64,000 nucleotides of DNA from Rhizomucor pusillus (taxonomy: Eukaryota; Mucoromycota; Mucoromycetes; Mucorales; Lichtheimiaceae): the NCBI GenBank assembly GCA_900175165.2, contig FWWN02000531.1:1-64000 (forward strand), written 5' to 3'. Each line of letters starts with the position of its first letter. Position 1 is the first letter of the stretch. Made by a program: the position numbers and the translations under genes. Shown here one piece after another: positions 1,431-64,000 of this stretch. The notes beneath the pieces were generated by a model that had not been told where the DNA came from, did not search any database, and saw nothing but the letters and a program-made list of their open reading frames with translations.

Positions 1431-1479
1431 TCCCCGTTATCTGCAGCTGGGCGTTTCTCTCAATTTGTCGTTGCAGCTC

Positions 1480-2000
1480 GCACAGTGGGTAGTAGACTTT
1501 TCTTTTGTCGATCACAGCCTCGGATCTCGCCGCGGTGACACAAGTTCGTTGGCGTTGCCAGAGGCTCAAAAGAATTTGTTACGCTTGACCGCCGACCAGA
1601 ACTGCTCGATAATGCAGTTCAGTTCCAAGATGATCGGGTTGAACCGAGGAGAATACGGCGGGAGATAGGCATACTGAGCCACGGAACGCGATGTGCTTGG
1701 GTATATCGTTAGATATATTGGATAGGAGTGTTATCCATCACCAGAGACAGTGACCATTCATGTGCAAATACTGGCCAAAGGTAACGACCTATCGGCTACT
1801 GCAGAGATCCTTTCCTTGGCTGACAGTCTTGGGCTGTACACTTGATCGGACTTGAGGCGCCCCTCAGTTGTGGTTTTCTAACGAACGCACGCGAACGTTA
1901 GTTTGACCAGGCCACACTGCACGTCATTTTGATGGAGGCCCCCCTCATCCAGGAAGACGGCGAGGCTAGTTACGGCGCTCCTAGAACTTGGCTCCGTGCA
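1480..2000 (-). pseudogene. Tc1/mariner-type transposase relic
   Basis: Read on the minus strand, three pieces of a DDE transposase appear in order. Near 1,960 is VFLDEGGLHQN (first Asp block). Near 1,720 is LVMDNTPIQ (second Asp block, DN motif). Near 1,660-1,600 is AYLPPYSPRFNPI followed by IIEQFWSAVK (terminal Glu block). The pieces lie in different frames. The last block carries an apparent small insertion between the conserved NPI and EQFW, followed by TGA. The catalytic core is therefore recognisable but broken by indels and stops. Terminal inverted repeats were not identified. Confidence 0.75.
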
Positions 2001-2273
2001 GCGATTGAAGCCGAATCTTCGCAAGCGACGCGTTGTTCTTCTCTGACTGCAGTGGAAAATGATACGAAACAAAGACCTCCTGAAATTCCATACTTAAACA
2101 ATGAAACTGGTTGGAAAGAGTGTATATTTAAAATGTAATAACTACAGTAATAATGTGCAAAAAGAAGGAAAGAAAGAATAAAGGAAAATCGTGTACAGAA
2201 AAGGAGGCGGGCGCGGGCGCAATGTATAAAAACTGTGAAATGGGAAGGGAAGTGTAGAATATACAATCATCAT

Positions 2274-5200
2274 CTAGCCAGTGAAGATTCTGAAAAGGAG
2301 GTACAAACATGATCCGCAGAATCGGACAGCTGAGAGCGCGGCCACGGACCACAGCACGAAACCAAGGTAGATTGTGCTTCGTGTCTCAAAGTCTCCAATG
2401 CTGTTGAATGCGGAGTTGGTGACGGCCGCTACTAGTGCCAAGTTGCTAATGATCCAAGATAACTACAAACGAATACAAAAGATAAGTAACACGTCGTGTA
2501 TATATCTTAGTAGATTCCTCAGCTACATACCACAATGCGAGTACGGAAAGACTTGTAGTAATCTTCCTGCTTGGTCTGAGCATCGCGGTGCTGCTCGACC
2601 TCTTCTGGCTTTCGCTGGAGTTCCAGGCACGCAGCCTCGTACGCTTCGTTAATATCCTTTTGCTCCGTTGGAACTTCGACTTCGGCTGTGTGATCGCCTG
2701 ACTCGTCCTTCTTGGCCTTTACAACACCCAGATCTGTAGCGACCTTGGTGTCACCCTTGGTACCCCAAGAAACATCGTGTGTGTTGCAAAAGGCGTAAAC
2801 GTTGAGAATGTTGGTATAGCTCGGGGACATGAAGATATACTGGATGAAGCTGGTGAACATGTGCCAGGGGTCCAAGAAGAGGAAGCTGGAGACAAAGTAC
2901 ATGACATAGGTTGAGAGCAAAGAGATAATGATGTTGCGGAAAGTCGATTCGCCGAGCATGGCTGTCACAGATCCTCCAGCATCATCCACCGCACTCTGGA
3001 TACCAACAACAGTGATCCAAATGGTTGCAAATACCATGTATACCATCAACAATGCAAAGAAGACCATACTGCCAGTGTACGCCCACTTTGATCCCTGAGG
3101 TCGGTTACCGAGAGCGAGGATGAATTGCACAATCATGAGGAGGACGTAGATGTAGTTGAGTACGGTATGCAAAATATTTGCCACGGTGGATGAGAAGGGC
3201 TTTGGATCGAGGGAGTCTGCACCAAGTGCGCTGGTAAGGATGTAGAATGTCAGGTAGAAGTTACCCTATTGTTGCAGTTAGTATATCGTCAACGCAACCG
3301 ATATAATAGTTGAGGGATACATACAATGGCGAACCAGGCAAAGATCATGTTGTAAGTATTGTAAACATCTTCCACCATAAACATCATTTTACGGACAAAC
3401 GAGTGGTCGGATGCCCAGACTTTTCGCCAATGCCACAATGCATATACACCAGCAAAGAAGGAACCTATGATCCAACAACATTGTCAGTCAGTCAAAAATT
3501 AATGAATACCTTGCAGCAGCAAAAAAAAAAAATCTTTTACCGTTTAGCCATCGACGTCGCTGAGAAATAAATTCAGGCACCTTGTCAGGCACGTCAGTTT
3601 CACCGTAGCTTCTGTTGACATAGTGCAGCACCCAGTGGGCGTGTTTCTTGGCAACAAGTTCGTAACACAAAATACGATCCTCGGCAAGGTACATGTTGGC
3701 TGTGAAGATATCTGCATCGCCGCCGTGCATGGTTTCACCCAAAAAGTACTTTTCCAACGGACCGTGACCCTCGGCATCGTTCTGCAGAGCTGTGTACCTG
3801 TAAGCAGAGAAGGCACCTGGCAACACCGAAATGTATCCAAACACTGATTCCAGCGGCTTGTCCAGGATATTTGACATTTTATATTCAAAGTTCTGAGCAG
3901 CAACCAACGGGTTCAACAATGCAACTCCGGCGGTACCTGTACAAAAACCATTGTTAACGCCACGATCGTCATTTATGACTGTTACTTTCTGCTCTTGGCT
4001 CACCTGTCAGGGCACGAATTTCACCGCATGCACCGGCAATGTTCGAGTTGATATCAAAAGCTTTCCAAAGATGATAAATGGACGAGTGACCAGGGCGAGT
4101 ACCGACATCGATGAGAACACAGACATGCGGGTCGATAAGCGGGCCGAAAGCCTGGAAAAACCAACGATGCGAGTTGATCTTCTTTTGGTTCTTTTCCTTC
4201 AAGCAGAACAAGACTTGGCACGGGGTAATGCCCTTGTCAGCAGCCTTGAATTTCATCTCTGGGTCGACTGAAAGCTGCGTCGTGTACTACTCAAACTCTA
4301 AATTTTAGCGCCAACGTGGAATAATGATGGCTTTTGTTTTTTTCTAACCTCGTAAATATGCGCCGTCACTGCCTTGTCACCGACAATGTTCTTTGCAACA
4401 CCGTCCTGATAAACACCCAAGGTAGCAAGCAGCGATAAAGTGCGCTGGTTGATTTTTTGTCGACCATCAGATACGATGCACACCGTGATCTTCTTCCACC
4501 CTTCTGGGCCCCAAGTCCGCGACCGGTCGCGTCCGCAAAGATATGCAATGTTTTTCATCACACCGTGCATTGTTCGAGCAAAAAGAACTTCGTCTTCCTA
4601 CATTGCCCCCCAGTGAGTCCGCTATTCCGCACGCACACGCGCGCGCTCTCTTGCCCGCAATGATTTCTTACATTGTACATGGTCAAGACGATAAACAACT
4701 CGGTGTGGCGTTCAAGCAGCTGTTGTCGAAGCGTGTATCCCTCCGAGGCAAAATCAGCAGGATCGCAGGTGGCTGCTGTGTATCGCATGTGTGTGAATTC
4801 CTTGCCTTCCTTGATCGGAACGGCTTGCAAGTAACGCGTGGGCACAGGACAGTCAAGCACCAGGTGACCACGATGCAGCTTGACCTTTCGAGCTGTTTTT
4901 CCCCTTTGTTAGTACTTTTACCGTGCTAGATCACTCAAGTCTTCGCCAACTTACTCGTCTTGTACCTGCGAGGCTGTCGCCGGGGTGCACCGCCGTAATG
5001 CATGTTTGGAGAAGGAGGCGTGAAGGCCGGGAACTCGGGCTGAGGACTCGGTGGTGCGCCAGCTCCAGCACCTGGGCTAAAGTATTCATCGTTTCGAGGA
5101 TACGGTGCAGGCGAACCTCTCAAGAGCGGTTGGTTGTCGTAAGCGCCAGGAACCGCTGCGTGGTCCGGATACGGATCCGCAAAGGGGTCCCCTCTGTCGA

Positions 5201-57421: not shown

Positions 57422-59899
57422 ATGAAGAGGAAGATATTTGCACTCATGCTAAGAGTCCTGTCAGCTCCAATTTGCAGACTTTGACAGTGGATGCATTAGA
57501 GATATGGAAGGAATTGGGCTTATTAACAGCGAGCAAGCATTGTGTAACTGAAGAAAATATTTATGCCGCCTGGAACACTATCTGGCGTGGCGCTTCTGAC
57601 AGGTTTTGCAACACAAGTATTCTTGCCTAGCTTGTGCCAGCCAATTTTTGCTGCATAAAGCGTGAAATCCCCAACAATTCGTGCCATGGATTATTTCAGA
57701 ACAACGGCAGTTGAATCATGGAATCATCAAGCGATCGTGAGCCGTTACATTGAGACCGCTAAAGATGCGGACCAAGGCCGTATTCTGTTCGCTATCAAAA
57801 AGGACTTGGAGGTTCTGTCACAGGAAAGGACTACGGCGAAAGGCCTAAAGGCGCGCTTAATGCTGGAGCATTGGGCACAAGAAAAGGTCTGACTAACCTG
57901 CCTGTGGCGAGACAAGAAGTATCTGAAATTAAGGTACAATATAGGACAAGTTTAAGAAGATGTTTCCAAACAAGCAGCTCAATGAAGACGAAAATCAAGC
58001 CCCAGACAACTCTACCAGATCTCAAGTCGCTATCTCGAATCTGAAGGTTACAAATAATAACCAAGAGTACGTAAAGAAAAACTTACAAAGTTTACGAAAT
58101 GCTCATATACAGTTTGACGATAGTGGTTCGAATATAACGATGAACATTGGGACCTCAACTACAAACAATTATACCGGTCAAGGTAGAGCTTATTGCTGTC
58201 TACGCGGTGCAGCGCATGTCTGACTAGATGCATAATAGAACAAATCTCTAATGAAATACTGCGAAAGAGATCCGTAATAAGCGATGCAATGGAAGAAGAA
58301 AACGATGGCAGCCAAAAGGTAATGGCTCATAAGGGAGTAACGATTTGTTTATATCTGATAACTTCCAAATTTTACAGAAGCAAAAAGCTGGATACCAGAG
58401 TACTGTGGACTCGGATGGTCTGGATGATGAGGCAATCCTTTATATCCCTTTGCAGCATGTTACGACTATTAACTAACCTGTGAATTTGTATAGACAGAAT
58501 CATTTGTCACGATGGAGAGAACGTTATGGCAAGAATGGCTACTTTTCTTGGATGCTGCGGAAACTGATCAAGACCTGCATCTCTATAGGTGAATATTAAT
58601 GCTTGCCTGTACTGCATAGATAACTTAGTAACATAGTGCTGAGCGGCATGGCATCATTGTGTGCGGCGAAAATATCCGGCGAACAGAGGGTATGCCAGAA
58701 AAGGTTTACGAAGAAACGGTGAACCGTTTGGAAAAAAGAAGTCCATTTGTCAACTTCTTCTCCGAGGAGCTGACATACGTTGATGGAATCCTTGATGCTG
58801 TAAGTACCGATTGTGTGTGTTAGTATTCACGACAAAGCTCTAATATCTCTGCATACTGTAGGCACCCGCCTCCAAGCTTTCCATGGTAAGGAAAATGGTA
58901 CCAGGAGGCGACCGACATCGCCAAGAAGAGTTTCTATACGATATGTTCTTGACTATGTGAGGATTATTATTCGCGTGCTTATGATAACTACCTGGTTAAC
59001 GCCCTACATATCAAAGAATACGAGACATCTATATTGCAGAGACAGACTTAGAGTTTAGTGAGTCGGTTCTCAGCTCTGTCATCCTTGATCCATCTATACG
59101 TATCACAATCCAAGCTAGCGCAAACCCCAACTGGAAGATACGTTACTTTCCAGCGGAAGTGCAGTTGCGTGCCATGACACAGCAACTCAAGAACAATGGA
59201 TTCTTCGTAAACGAGCGAAATATTTACAAAGCAGATGGTATCATCACTATCAACGATATTGAAGTATGCATTCTGGAAATATCACATGCCTTAAATCAAG
59301 CAAACATTCGCAAATCAAGTTTCGATTTTCATAAAGGATTGTACGGTCTTGTCGCCATGATCAAGACTATTGCTGATACTTACAAATGCGCATCCTTCAG
59401 CACCTTTTCCAAGCTGAAGTTATTCTTTATTCACCTGCATGGTAAGTATACTATGTCAACTATGAGAGTGCATTCTGCTCAGCCCTCATAGGGAAACACA
59501 TACGGTTATGGAGTCTGCGCATCCCCCACCCAGGACTCATGACGATGGTAAGGGAAGACAAGGCGGACGTCCCAGTGTCCTTCCGGGACGATGATAAAGT
59601 GATACTGGACTTTTCTCGTTTCTGGTGGAATCTCAAGGTACACTCGAATTAAGCTTTTGATTACAAGCATATATATAACTTGGTTGCAGATCGAGATGGA
59701 AAAATCCATGAAAATCTTAGAAGAAATACAGGAACAGCACCAGAGCAATGGAAAAAAGTATCGTTATACTGCCGTTCCCGATGAAGCAGATTTATCCAAA
59801 ATTGTCAGGCCGGCTATCATCCGATTGTCAGAGCGCATCCATGCATCGTACTTTGTGGATAATCTACCTCGCAGTTCACCTCCGATGCCAATACCCTGA
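57422..59899 (+). CDS. Multi-exon gene with PD-(D/E)XK-like core, unknown function
   Basis: About ten exons join in one frame with GT-AG introns: DALEIWKELGLLTASKHC; MDYFRTTAVESWNHQAIVSR; KMFPNKQLNEDENQ; NITMNIGTSTTNNYTGQ; RSVISDAMEEENDGSQK; LWQEWLLFLDAAETDQDLHL; SAERHGIIVCGENIRR. The C-terminal domain then has IRYFPAEVQLRAMTQQL, IYKADGIITINDIEVCILEI, SSFDFHKGLYGLVAMIKTIA and FFIHLHGKHIRLWSLRIPHP, with a coiled-coil-like end before TGA. The Asp in KADGII plus Glu in CILEIS resembles the metal-binding D...E pair of PD-(D/E)XK nucleases, although the third residue is Ser, not Lys. No stops interrupt the joined frame, so the gene seems functional. The true first ATG is unresolved, because the first exon frame has no Met. 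It is flanked by direct repeats. Confidence 0.65.
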
Positions 59900-60305
59900 C
59901 TACGTTCCCTTTCCCGATGCTCTTCTTTTTTCATTTTTTTATAAGCCTCTATCGCTATATGAATGCATACCATCGTTACAAATGATCTGTATATAAATAT
60001 TATCCGCTGGTGAGATTTTCCTTCGCAACGTCTACTTGCTCACAAACCTGAGCATTATGCAGTTCGAGTGTTACAAATGGCGACTCTTTATGACTCTTTC
60101 TTTATTAAAATGTGAGGTTCCAAAAGCCGAATCTCTATCCACTACATCATCTTATTTACTACAGCTATATGACTTATAGCACAAAGGGAGGCTATCCTTC
60201 GCGAGTCATTATCCGGATACAAATACAGACACTTGCTCTTTCATGCATTCATTCTATTGCAAGTATTCAGAAGGCAGTGAATTCAAGAAGCGACGTCTAA
60301 ATAGA

Positions 60306-60347
60306 CAAAAGTCGGAAGGATATGCGCAAAAGTCGGAAGGATATGCG
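60306..60347. repeat. 21-bp tandem duplication
   Basis: Two perfect copies of caaaagtcggaaggatatgc plus one base, back to back. Confidence 0.9.
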
Positions 60348-61836: not shown

Positions 61837-61924
61837 GGAAAAGAATAAGACTTGAGCAAATTTGCCGTCAGGTAAAAAGAAATCGTACATCCTTGTTTGT
61901 GATTTGACGATCGGGTTGGATGTA

Positions 61925-62327
61925 CCAGTATTTTTAAAAAGTAATGTCGCAGCCAATGAAATTTATTTCCAAAAAGTAATGCCACAACGAATGAAAATCA
62001 ATGTCGCAGGCCTATGAAAATTAATGTCACGTGTTTCAAATGGATGTCGCCTGCTTAGAAATCAAATGTCGCAAGAAATTCTAGGCACATCGTGATATTT
62101 ATCACCACGTTAGGATTTAATATGGCTCAATTTCTTTATGAAGATGGACAGGGCCACGATGTTGATGAGCAAGGCTGCCCTGAGCCCATGGACTATGTCG
62201 TTGATGAGGAAGTGTACGCTCTTCAAATTGTGAGCTCTCATACAGAATATTTGCGTAATTTATCTCGCGAGCACAACCACGAGTCCATTGCTACGCATAC
62301 AGATGAGCCAAAGAACACTGATATTCG
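61925..62327 (+). repeat. Left inverted arm of the fold-back element
   Basis: It contains six ATGTCGC-like motifs starting at 61,944; 61,979; 62,001; 62,024; 62,044 and 62,066. The spacing is 35, then 22, 23, 20 and 22 nt. The start of the transposase ORF (ATG at 62,122) lies in this arm. Confidence 0.92.
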
Positions 62328-62672
62328 CATGAGAGACGCAACTCCTGAGCGAAATTATACAACCTACACGGACCAAGATAAAGTGAGATTTTTCAAACTG
62401 ATTGTTTGAGAAGGTTTTAAGTGCGTCAGCGCTGCAAAGCAGTTAGGAATACATGTTCGTTCAGCACAAAAGATGGGCGTTACAGTATGAAAAGCACCCT
62501 GACAGTATTTTAAAAAGCGTAACAACAAGTGGTCGTCCGCGTATCCTCAATGAACTGCATAAGCAAGTTATTTTAGAATATGTTGACGAGAATCCGTCGA
62601 TTGTCCTAGAACAGGTGATAGAGCGACTGCTTCAGTGATTTGAGGGATTGAAGGTATCCAAAACGACTGTAT
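62122..62672 (+). pseudogene. Truncated transposase N-terminal region
   Basis: The frame from ATG runs through an acidic leader to RDATPERNYTTYTDQDKVRF, meets a TGA, and continues in other frames as the helix-turn-helix (SAAKQLGIHV), a GRPR linker-like SGRPRIL and KVSKTTVY at the boundary with the right arm. The DDE catalytic domain has been replaced by the inverted arm. Confidence 0.75.
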
Positions 62673-62674
62673 AT

Positions 62675-63041
62675 CGAATATCAGTGTTCTTTGGCTCATC
62701 TGTATGCGTAGCAATGGACTCGTGGTTGTGCTCGCGAGATAAATTACGCAAATATTCTGTATGAGAGCTCACAATTTGAAGAGCGTACACTTCCTCATCA
62801 ACGACATAGTCCATGGGCTCAGGGCAGCCTTGCTCATCAACATCGTGGCCCTGTCCATCTTCATAAAGAAATTGAGCCATATTAAATCCTAACGTGGTGA
62901 TAAATATCACGATGTGCCTAGAATTTCTTGCGACATTTGATTTCTAAGCAGGCGACATCCATTTGAAACACGTGACATTAATTTTCATAGGCCTGCGACA
63001 TTGATTTTCATTCGTTGTGGCATTACTTTTTAAAAATACTG
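62675..63041 (-). repeat. Right inverted arm of the fold-back element
   Basis: Reverse complement of the left arm from the TIR through the codons for KNTDIR of the ORF, but lacking the 36-nt block (one iteron) that follows the terminal repeat on the left. By eye no other mismatch was found. Confidence 0.92.
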
Positions 63042-63043
63042 TA

Positions 63044-63403
63044 AAGATCGGTAAAAGTACAATAACAAACAAGAATATTGGGTTGTCAACGTTCATTTGC
63101 ATTTAATACTCCTAGATCTCAGAGTTTTCCAACATAGGGTGGTAAGGGTTGCAAAGAACAGCCGCACTAAAACTCCATGAACTGTCAACACTGCTGCCCT
63201 TTTCTACTAATAGTCCATCTGTCTTACAATCAACGCACCACCAATATCTAGTCACGGCCGAAAAAAATGCTTAAAGCATGTGCACTCAAGTTTTTTATCT
63301 CCCAGGTACGTAACGAATACATCATATGTCCGTGTATATGTATAAAATGCTATTGATATCCAATGCTTACATCCACGAATCTTTTCCCTTTTTAGATGTC
63401 TAC
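63044..63403. other. Spacer between the fold-back element and the dehydrogenase gene
   Basis: About 360 bp containing the 3' flank of the dehydrogenase gene. No recognisable feature. Confidence 0.5.
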
Positions 63404-64000
63404 TTAGTGAGTGGGCATAGAAACGCTGGAACGGGTGTGGTCGGCATCGGTTTCTTTCCACAAGGAAGTAACGGTCTTGGGCTTAGTGTAAAAGTGGAGA
63501 CCGCTCTTGCCGTAGAAGTTCATGTCACCGAGAATGGATCCACGGCTACCAGTCTATACAAAACATGATAATCAGTAAAACAAAATACTCGGTATACAAG
63601 TGCAGCACTAATCTACTTACGAAGGAGAAGGGTGGAACGGGGACTGGAATAGGAACGTTGATACCGACTTGGCCGACATCAATTTCATGTTCGAACTTGC
63701 GAGCGTTGGGACCAGAGTTAGTAAAGACAGCAGTGCCGTTGCCATAAGGGTTAGCGTTGATAAGCTCAATGGCTTCATCCAAGGTATCAACATGCAAGCA
63801 GACGAGAACAGGTGCGAAGATTTCTTCGCGGTAACATTCCATATGAGGCTTAACATCGGTGAGGATGGTGGGACCTTGATTTCTCATATGTTAGCTAGGT
63901 TATACTTTGGTGAAACCTTATTGAGCACACAGCTTACCAACAAAGTTGCCCTTCTCATAGCCCTTGACAACGATGCCTCGGCCATCCAACAAGGCAGTGG
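63404..64000 (-). CDS. ALDH6A1: Methylmalonate-semialdehyde dehydrogenase, 3' part (partial)
   Basis: CoA-acylating aldehyde dehydrogenase of valine and pyrimidine catabolism, mitochondrial; it converts (methyl)malonate semialdehyde to propionyl- or acetyl-CoA. Three exons are visible. [19 protein letters not shown] runs off the right edge. [20 protein letters not shown] is followed by [20 protein letters not shown] and [18 protein letters not shown]. The last exon begins [19 protein letters not shown] and ends VSMPTH before TAA. The [21 protein letters not shown] segment, split by an intron at FSF/TGS, is diagnostic of this ALDH6 family. The catalytic Cys and N-terminus lie beyond the window. 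No lesions seen. Confidence 0.92.

Follow-up and report, generated by a model that had tools for sequence, protein, structure and literature searches.

A probable product of template-switched gap repair: a Tc1/mariner-type fold-back element with two 5' ends in Rhizomucor pusillus

The element and its arms

This study concerns a fold-back element at positions 61925-63041 of a 64,000-nt stretch of Rhizomucor pusillus DNA (hereafter the window: positions 1 to 64,000 of contig FWWN02000531.1, our C258, which measures 158,601 bp in an assembly of 24.45 Mb and 353 contigs). Two inverted copies of the 5' end of a transposase gene are arranged there around a short unique centre, and we regard the whole as probably a dead and non-autonomous offshoot of a Tc1/mariner-type transposon family in this fungus; it has two 5' ends but lacks both a 3' end and the catalytic domain. 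Its features, in window coordinates, are as follows (the A and B types are described in the next section):

61923-61924, no strand: TA at the left border, half of a presumed TA target duplication, with a surplus C at 61925 before CAGT (read from the sequence)
61926-61967, plus strand: left tip, like the ends of C100/C198-type elements (tip comparison)
61964-62327, plus strand: left arm, with iterons, 5' untranslated region (UTR) and the first ~68 transposase codons (repeat finder)
62122-62409, plus strand: 5' portion of the transposase reading frame, 95 amino acids (aa) counted from the ATG at 62122 and open as far as 62409
62128-62155, plus strand: approximate switch from a B-type 5' module to an A-type body, element positions ~204-231 (informative sites and sliding windows)
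62328-62674, plus strand: unique centre, a decayed helix-turn-helix part with no DDE domain
62675-62677, no strand: inner join between the body and the inverted arm, with the 3-nt overlap CGA (overlap read by eye)
62675-63038, minus strand: right arm, the inverted copy of the left arm
63021-63041, minus strand: right tip CAGTATTTTTAAAAAGTAATG, one iteron unit fewer than the left
63042-63043, no strand: TA at the right border

The repeat finder delimits two inverted arms of 364 bp each, separated by a spacer of 347 nt. They differ at only 2 of the 364 sites (61969 and 61970, CC versus TT, near the outer edge), and further inwards, from 61971-62327 against 62675-63031, they are identical at 357 of 357 positions. 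An identity of this order is far above chance expectation, and a chance inverted repeat is ruled out. Each arm holds the family terminus, the iterons, the 5' UTR and the first ~68 codons of the transposase, whose start lies in open reading frames at 62092-62409 on the plus strand and 62632-62910 on the minus strand. The first-pass annotation, a reading of the letters alone, had described just such near-identical inverted arms, each with a transposase 5' end, and in this it was right.

When they are followed out to the tips, the two arms are of unequal length, 403 bp on the left and 367 bp on the right, as had already been proposed. The excess of 36 bp corresponds, by eye count, to one 35-nt iteron unit plus the surplus C; the left arm has 6 of the ATGYCRC iteron motifs and the right arm 5. 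Since the left border reads TA-C-CAGT and the right TA-CAGT, the claim of a TA on both sides is borne out, but with one surplus C at the left. TA at both borders and CAGT at both ends are as expected of a derivative of the Tc1-like (DD34E) group of Tc1/mariner elements. Just outside the element there is also a 16-nt imperfect inverted pair (61889-61904 and 63061-63076), which looks like chance.

The 347-bp centre extends the left transposase copy into its helix-turn-helix part. Compared by eye with full-length transposases in two overlapping alignments, it contains three frame switches and one in-frame stop, in agreement with the broken helix-turn-helix remnant previously noted between the arms. 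A domain search of the element's two open pieces found no DDE domain, and its match to HTH_32 is weak (E 0.016) and falls below the cut-off. In the relative C75 (P0001) the transposase matches DDE_3 with E 5.7e-28 and has 34 residues between the second D and the E (eye count), its helix-turn-helix matches too being below the curated cut-offs; this family transposase is 100% identical over 408 aa to a Rhizomucor pusillus protein, which places the host in that species or very near it.

The decay of the centre can be set against the identity of the arms. Had all four lesions in the 347 bp arisen after the arms formed, about 8 differences between the arms would be expected, and inside the outer edge there are 0 (P ~0.0003), so that the arms are younger than the decay or else were homogenised. 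Put the other way round, the lesions are hardly younger than the arms, which means either that the donor was already broken or that the arms were homogenised later. The absence of inner differences agrees with the recent formation or homogenisation suggested by the first reading. At zero differences the 95% upper bound on arm divergence is 0.8% (computed over 358 sites, the exact run being 357); the arms are relatively young, and this bound yields no date.

An inverted arm could also be created in the computer, by a mis-joined read or a gap filler. The assembly is in 353 contigs, N runs occur in 4 of the 44 loci that we scanned, some contigs end inside or at these elements, and the palindromic contig C308 is itself suspicious. 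However, the window as a whole is free of N letters, as are the 10 kb surrounding the element, the flanks on the two sides are each unique, the left and right tips differ, and the arm sequence is found nowhere else, so that no other assembled copy could have been its source. Moreover, one would expect a read folded back on itself to have duplicated flanking sequence in mirror image as well, and we consider an artefact highly improbable. As for C308, the locus L049 (G000:C308:4000-9000) has a 1619-bp inverted repeat of 99.75% identity with a B-type transposon at its centre. To judge from matches at C308:200 and C308:12188, this 12.9-kb contig seems to be mostly palindrome, a third copy standing at the end of C93; it may be either an artefact or a real large palindrome.

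Relatives, mosaic composition and copy number

At up to 3 mismatches the terminal 23-mer TACAGTATTTTTAAAAAGTAATG occurs at 31 places, two of which are the element's own ends and 29 of which are elsewhere, as against 0 for the reversed control. The relatives fall into an A type, with ends TACACTCTTTTCC.. and a body like that of the element, and a B type, with ends that are mostly TACAGTATTTNNAAAAAGTAATG.. and a body about 64% alike. The A-type end pattern was found at 8 places (control 0), and among these only the C146 pair has the orientation and spacing expected of a single element's two ends. A scan of 29 loci for paired ends found few, because its pattern (TACAG/TACTG) excludes the A-type TACAC ends and because it demanded 22 of 30 identical bases, and we have not used it. 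Inverted repeats that bound an element were detected at 9 of 40 related loci and are 41-151 bp long, compared with ~360 in the fold-back element.

The element resembles different relatives in its different parts, a feature absent from the first-pass annotation. Of the 43 related loci, 18 relatives were aligned and compared in sliding windows of 50 bp. At element positions 51-100 the best agreement is with B copies (C308 47/50, C80 43, C183 39), the others being lower (C198 30/48, C77 29/48, and C86 16/50, a row that was taken from the body piece of C86 and not from its 5' tip, which we compared separately); the A copies agree at 23-27 of 50 (C39 at 21/43), and the further copies C316 and C246 at 31/50. 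At positions 251-300 the order is reversed, with 43-48 of 50 for the A copies and 29-36 for the B copies. For the pair C52 (A) and C308 (B), 54 of 59 informative sites at positions 40-200 favour B and 162 of 188 at positions 250-753 favour A (Fisher P 1.4e-28), and three other A/B pairs go in the same direction with P from 2.6e-10 to 5.7e-20. The switch from B to A lies near the start codon, at about element positions 204-231, and because the arms are identical both of them carry it.

The leftmost 42 bp are of yet a third type, agreeing with the C100 tip at 40/42, with the 3' tip of C198 at 37/42 and with a C86-type 5' end at 35/42. From this left tip the sequence passes into a 5' end of the C86/C308 type, joined at a common TATT, while the right tip enters the same interior sooner, after 10-21 nt, within AAAAAGTAATG (by eye). 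All three of the joins that can be read (AAAAAGTAATG, TATT and the CGA of the inner join) thus lie in shared sequence. As read from these comparisons, at least three subfamilies contributed to the mosaic, one each to the tips, the 5' module and the coding body.

No second copy of both arms or of the inner junction was found in this assembly, either with the whole element as query (81 matches listed, the best 40 of 139 candidates being scored), with its 5' 206 bp (25/25 candidates scored) or with the inner junction (37/37 scored). The best non-self match to the whole element is C52, 86% over positions 204-753, and the best-scoring match to the 5' query is C308, 79% over positions 40-174, although shorter 5' stretches come nearer (C308 and C93 each reach 95% over 65 bp). 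Tip matches of 92-97% over 36-42 bp occur in C100, C198, C120 and C32. The inner junction is spanned by the element itself and by nothing else, the best body match there being C52 at 92% over 113 bp, and relatives of the body cease to match at or before element position 753.

Nor did these searches of the assembly find a whole-length or close parent, the figures just given (86% for the best body, 79% for the best-scoring 5' end) being the nearest approach; a close parent for the hairpin to silence is not supported. Among the predicted proteins of another R. pusillus assembly the best match to the 95-aa query was 72% (11/11 candidates, proteins of 0.55-1.75 times its length), and the 131 proteins from two protein searches, one represented by the best 120 of 491 hits, yielded no parent and the same 72% protein as the best. 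On these searches it stands alone in this assembly, as a single copy with no close parent.

These searches bear directly on the idea that the element belongs to a mobile fold-back family, or one like the miniature inverted-repeat transposable elements, that spreads by means of the family transposase. Both tips are indeed of the family type, as the distribution of the 23-mer attests. Nevertheless, a spreading family should be present as several dispersed two-arm copies, and the assembly has one; the idea of further copies with both arms finds no support in it, and mobility of this kind seems to us scarcely credible.

Origin of the two 5' ends

A mosaic of subfamilies points to template-switched repair, and the origin that we favour, with a probability of roughly two in three, is an abortive gap repair in which both ends of the gap copied the same donor 5' end. 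What is seen directly in this assembly is that the arms are identical, the tips unequal, the sequence a mosaic with shared letters where its parts meet, and the element single-copy; from this we infer the break, the order of events and the copying of both arms from one template in one event. The sequence of events would begin with a break or an excision at a CAGTATTTTTAAAAAG-tipped element. The two ends left behind, or tips newly copied there, have iterons in common with other members of the family, and both would then invade the same 5' end of a single chimeric donor, one having a B-type 5' module and an A-type body, and copying would proceed inwards for ~700 bp from one end and ~360 bp from the other. 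The joining of the two copied tracts at a 3-nt overlap would give a product with two 5' ends, neither a 3' end nor a catalytic domain remaining. Tips of the same type that enter identical, inverted, chimeric 5' halves at different points, together with a 3-nt inner overlap, are what one would expect of two gap ends copying one donor, and the lack of a close copy elsewhere is expected if the product replaced an element in place. The element thus looks like a one-off product of DNA repair, stitched together from several related elements.

Such a process would have precedents. Rubin and Levy (1997) reportedly attributed Ds-type elements to abortive gap repair, deletion derivatives being said to arise by interrupted repair after excision; unlike these, the R. 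pusillus element has its copied tract inverted and is stitched from several family members. For the Galileo (P) elements, defective members with terminal inverted repeats (TIRs) are described as arising when gap repair switches templates (PMC4168063), and for Pack-TIRs short shared sequences are described at the breakpoints (PMC8277862); on these accounts, it is accepted that defective copies can come from repair of this kind (PMC4168063, PMC8277862). Galileo and other Foldback-like elements of Drosophila have long inverted ends, as here, and their structural variants are put down to gap repair and template switching (PMC4168063). Galileo is of the P superfamily and has many copies, whereas the present element is single-copy and of Tc1/mariner type. 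Long identical inverted ends are described too in Bari1 of Drosophila rhopaloa, itself a Tc1-mariner element; that Bari1, whose table row there reads 255 and 100, is presented as putatively autonomous, with a transposase (PMC4877112), while in R. pusillus the arms extend into the coding sequence and the element has lost its catalytic domain. A literature search (titles and abstract openings) found no description of a Rhizomucor fold-back among the matches listed.

Several observations weigh against this origin. The chimeric donor with a B-type 5' module and an A-type body was not found in the assembly, and one of the A/B pairs, C66/C86, splits only weakly (40/68 for B in the 5' part). The 3-nt overlap by itself is near chance, and the right tip could have lost its iteron unit by slippage, with no need of a second template. 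Most single-copy Pack-TIR cases are ascribed, in the cited part of that study, to breaks inside elements and not to excision (PMC8277862), so excision need not have been the starting event here. Finally, much the same structure would result from a stepwise history in which an inverted insertion was followed by deletion and then by gene conversion between the arms.

This last possibility deserves to be set out. Two family members would have inserted tail-to-tail in inverse orientation, both 3' ends would have been deleted, and a later gene conversion would have made the arms identical. Neighbours of opposite orientation do exist in the family, judging from hit coordinates (head-to-head in C183 and C120, tail-to-tail in C198), and at C91 elements of two different subfamilies are fused tail-to-tail, their arms agreeing at 71%, the right arm being 90% identical to C316 and the left at most 77% to any other compared locus. 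Against this, the identity of our arms is 100% right up to the inner join and extends nearly to the tips, and because the same B-to-A switch is in both arms, both insertions must have been of the same rare chimera. We therefore think the two-insertion history unlikely.

Two other loci have related architectures. The C91 locus (L024 about 1450-3320; G000:C91 about 58450-60320) consists of two truncated members of different subfamilies with their 5' ends outwards. C32 (L059 1695-2100; G000:C32 about 88194-88600) is a small, degenerate mosaic and a second inverted 5'-end derivative, with a right tip that is unrecognisable; in it a B-type 5' end (81% identity over 81 bp) is followed first by 64 bp from the end of an A-type element, 97% identical to C2, and then by a B-type 5' region in inverse orientation that matches C74 at 93% over 219 bp. 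These two examples suggest, and do not prove, that members of this family have repeatedly lost their 3' ends while keeping 5' ends that face outwards. If template-switched gap repair is indeed the origin, the joins that can still be read in the window (unequal tips, a common donor end and a short inner overlap) would be a record of the birth of a fold-back from a cut-and-paste transposon.

Silencing potential of the hairpin

By analogy with Mu killer (Muk), the MuDR derivative of maize, the element might act as a silencing locus, with read-through or inward transcription giving a hairpin RNA, the source of small RNAs that would keep the family in check. The topology is the same: as described for Muk, both TIRs derive from the transposase-adjacent end, the transposase copies are partial and inverted, and the internal part is lost (PMC3440606). 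Muk, however, belongs to the Mutator superfamily, has arms of 1.3 kb and is a known silencer, whereas the R. pusillus element has arms of 0.36 kb and is a mosaic. The long hairpin anticipated by the first-pass annotation is also predicted by RNA folding, which gives a single long hairpin of -779.7 kcal/mol, a value computed without a shuffle comparison at this length. In addition, a methylmalonate-semialdehyde dehydrogenase gene on the minus strand is transcribed towards the element and has its stop (63404-63406) 362 bp away by eye count, so that read-through into the element is conceivable.

The genome has the domains that RNA interference (RNAi) would call for: Piwi at 2 places, RNA-dependent RNA polymerase (RdRP) at 2 loci and RNase III at 4 places, two of them adjacent on C30. 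A stop has to be read through in one piece of each RdRP locus. In the 14 control genomes, all bacterial, the same searches matched Piwi in 1/14, RdRP in 0/14 and RNase III in 8/14; with such a frequency in the controls, RNase III alone says little and is not Dicer-specific. Positions of these parts are G000:C30:18437-19339, C250:34264-35163, C229:80604-81443, C2:185290-187144 and C169:12200-14164 (two adjacent RNase III, two Piwi, two RdRP). Mucor lusitanicus, the model species of the same fungal order, is described as using RNAi on transposons (PMC11943222).

What speaks against silencing is the small amount of sequence that the hairpin shares with possible targets. Only 70 of the 344 21-mers of the arm are shared with any of the 43 related loci, 16 of which are matched (some of the 43, such as L067/L068 and L049/L052, being near-duplicates), and the longest exact match is 47. 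In the assembly and these 43 loci no close parent was found with which the hairpin would have long stretches in common. What is presumed to be the promoter may be impaired as well, as the 5' UTR/promoter stretch from GGCACATCG to the ATGGC of the frame start has 43 nt as opposed to 80 in C308, 37 nt shorter. Of the earlier silencing idea, then, the presence of RNAi-type domains speaks for the machinery, but the small share of common 21-mers leaves it possible and weak; we judge a Mu-killer-like function decidedly unlikely, and the roles in silencing and in spread are unsupported. Most likely the element today does nothing beyond sitting there, although, because both its tips are of the family's type, it may be a substrate for the family transposase.

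A bolder version can be formulated, given that the arms carry the 5' module of one subfamily and the coding start of another. In the Mucorales, gap repair with template switching might repeatedly make mosaic, inverted 5'-end derivatives, the youngest of which would serve as a self-made, Mu-killer-like hairpin trigger of RNAi against two subfamilies at once. We think this very unlikely as it stands. The element also offers a natural test of whether repair accidents of this sort can turn into triggers of silencing, the course that Mu killer took in maize. The neighbouring dehydrogenase gene occupies 63404-64000, continues past the window and is apparently split into exons.
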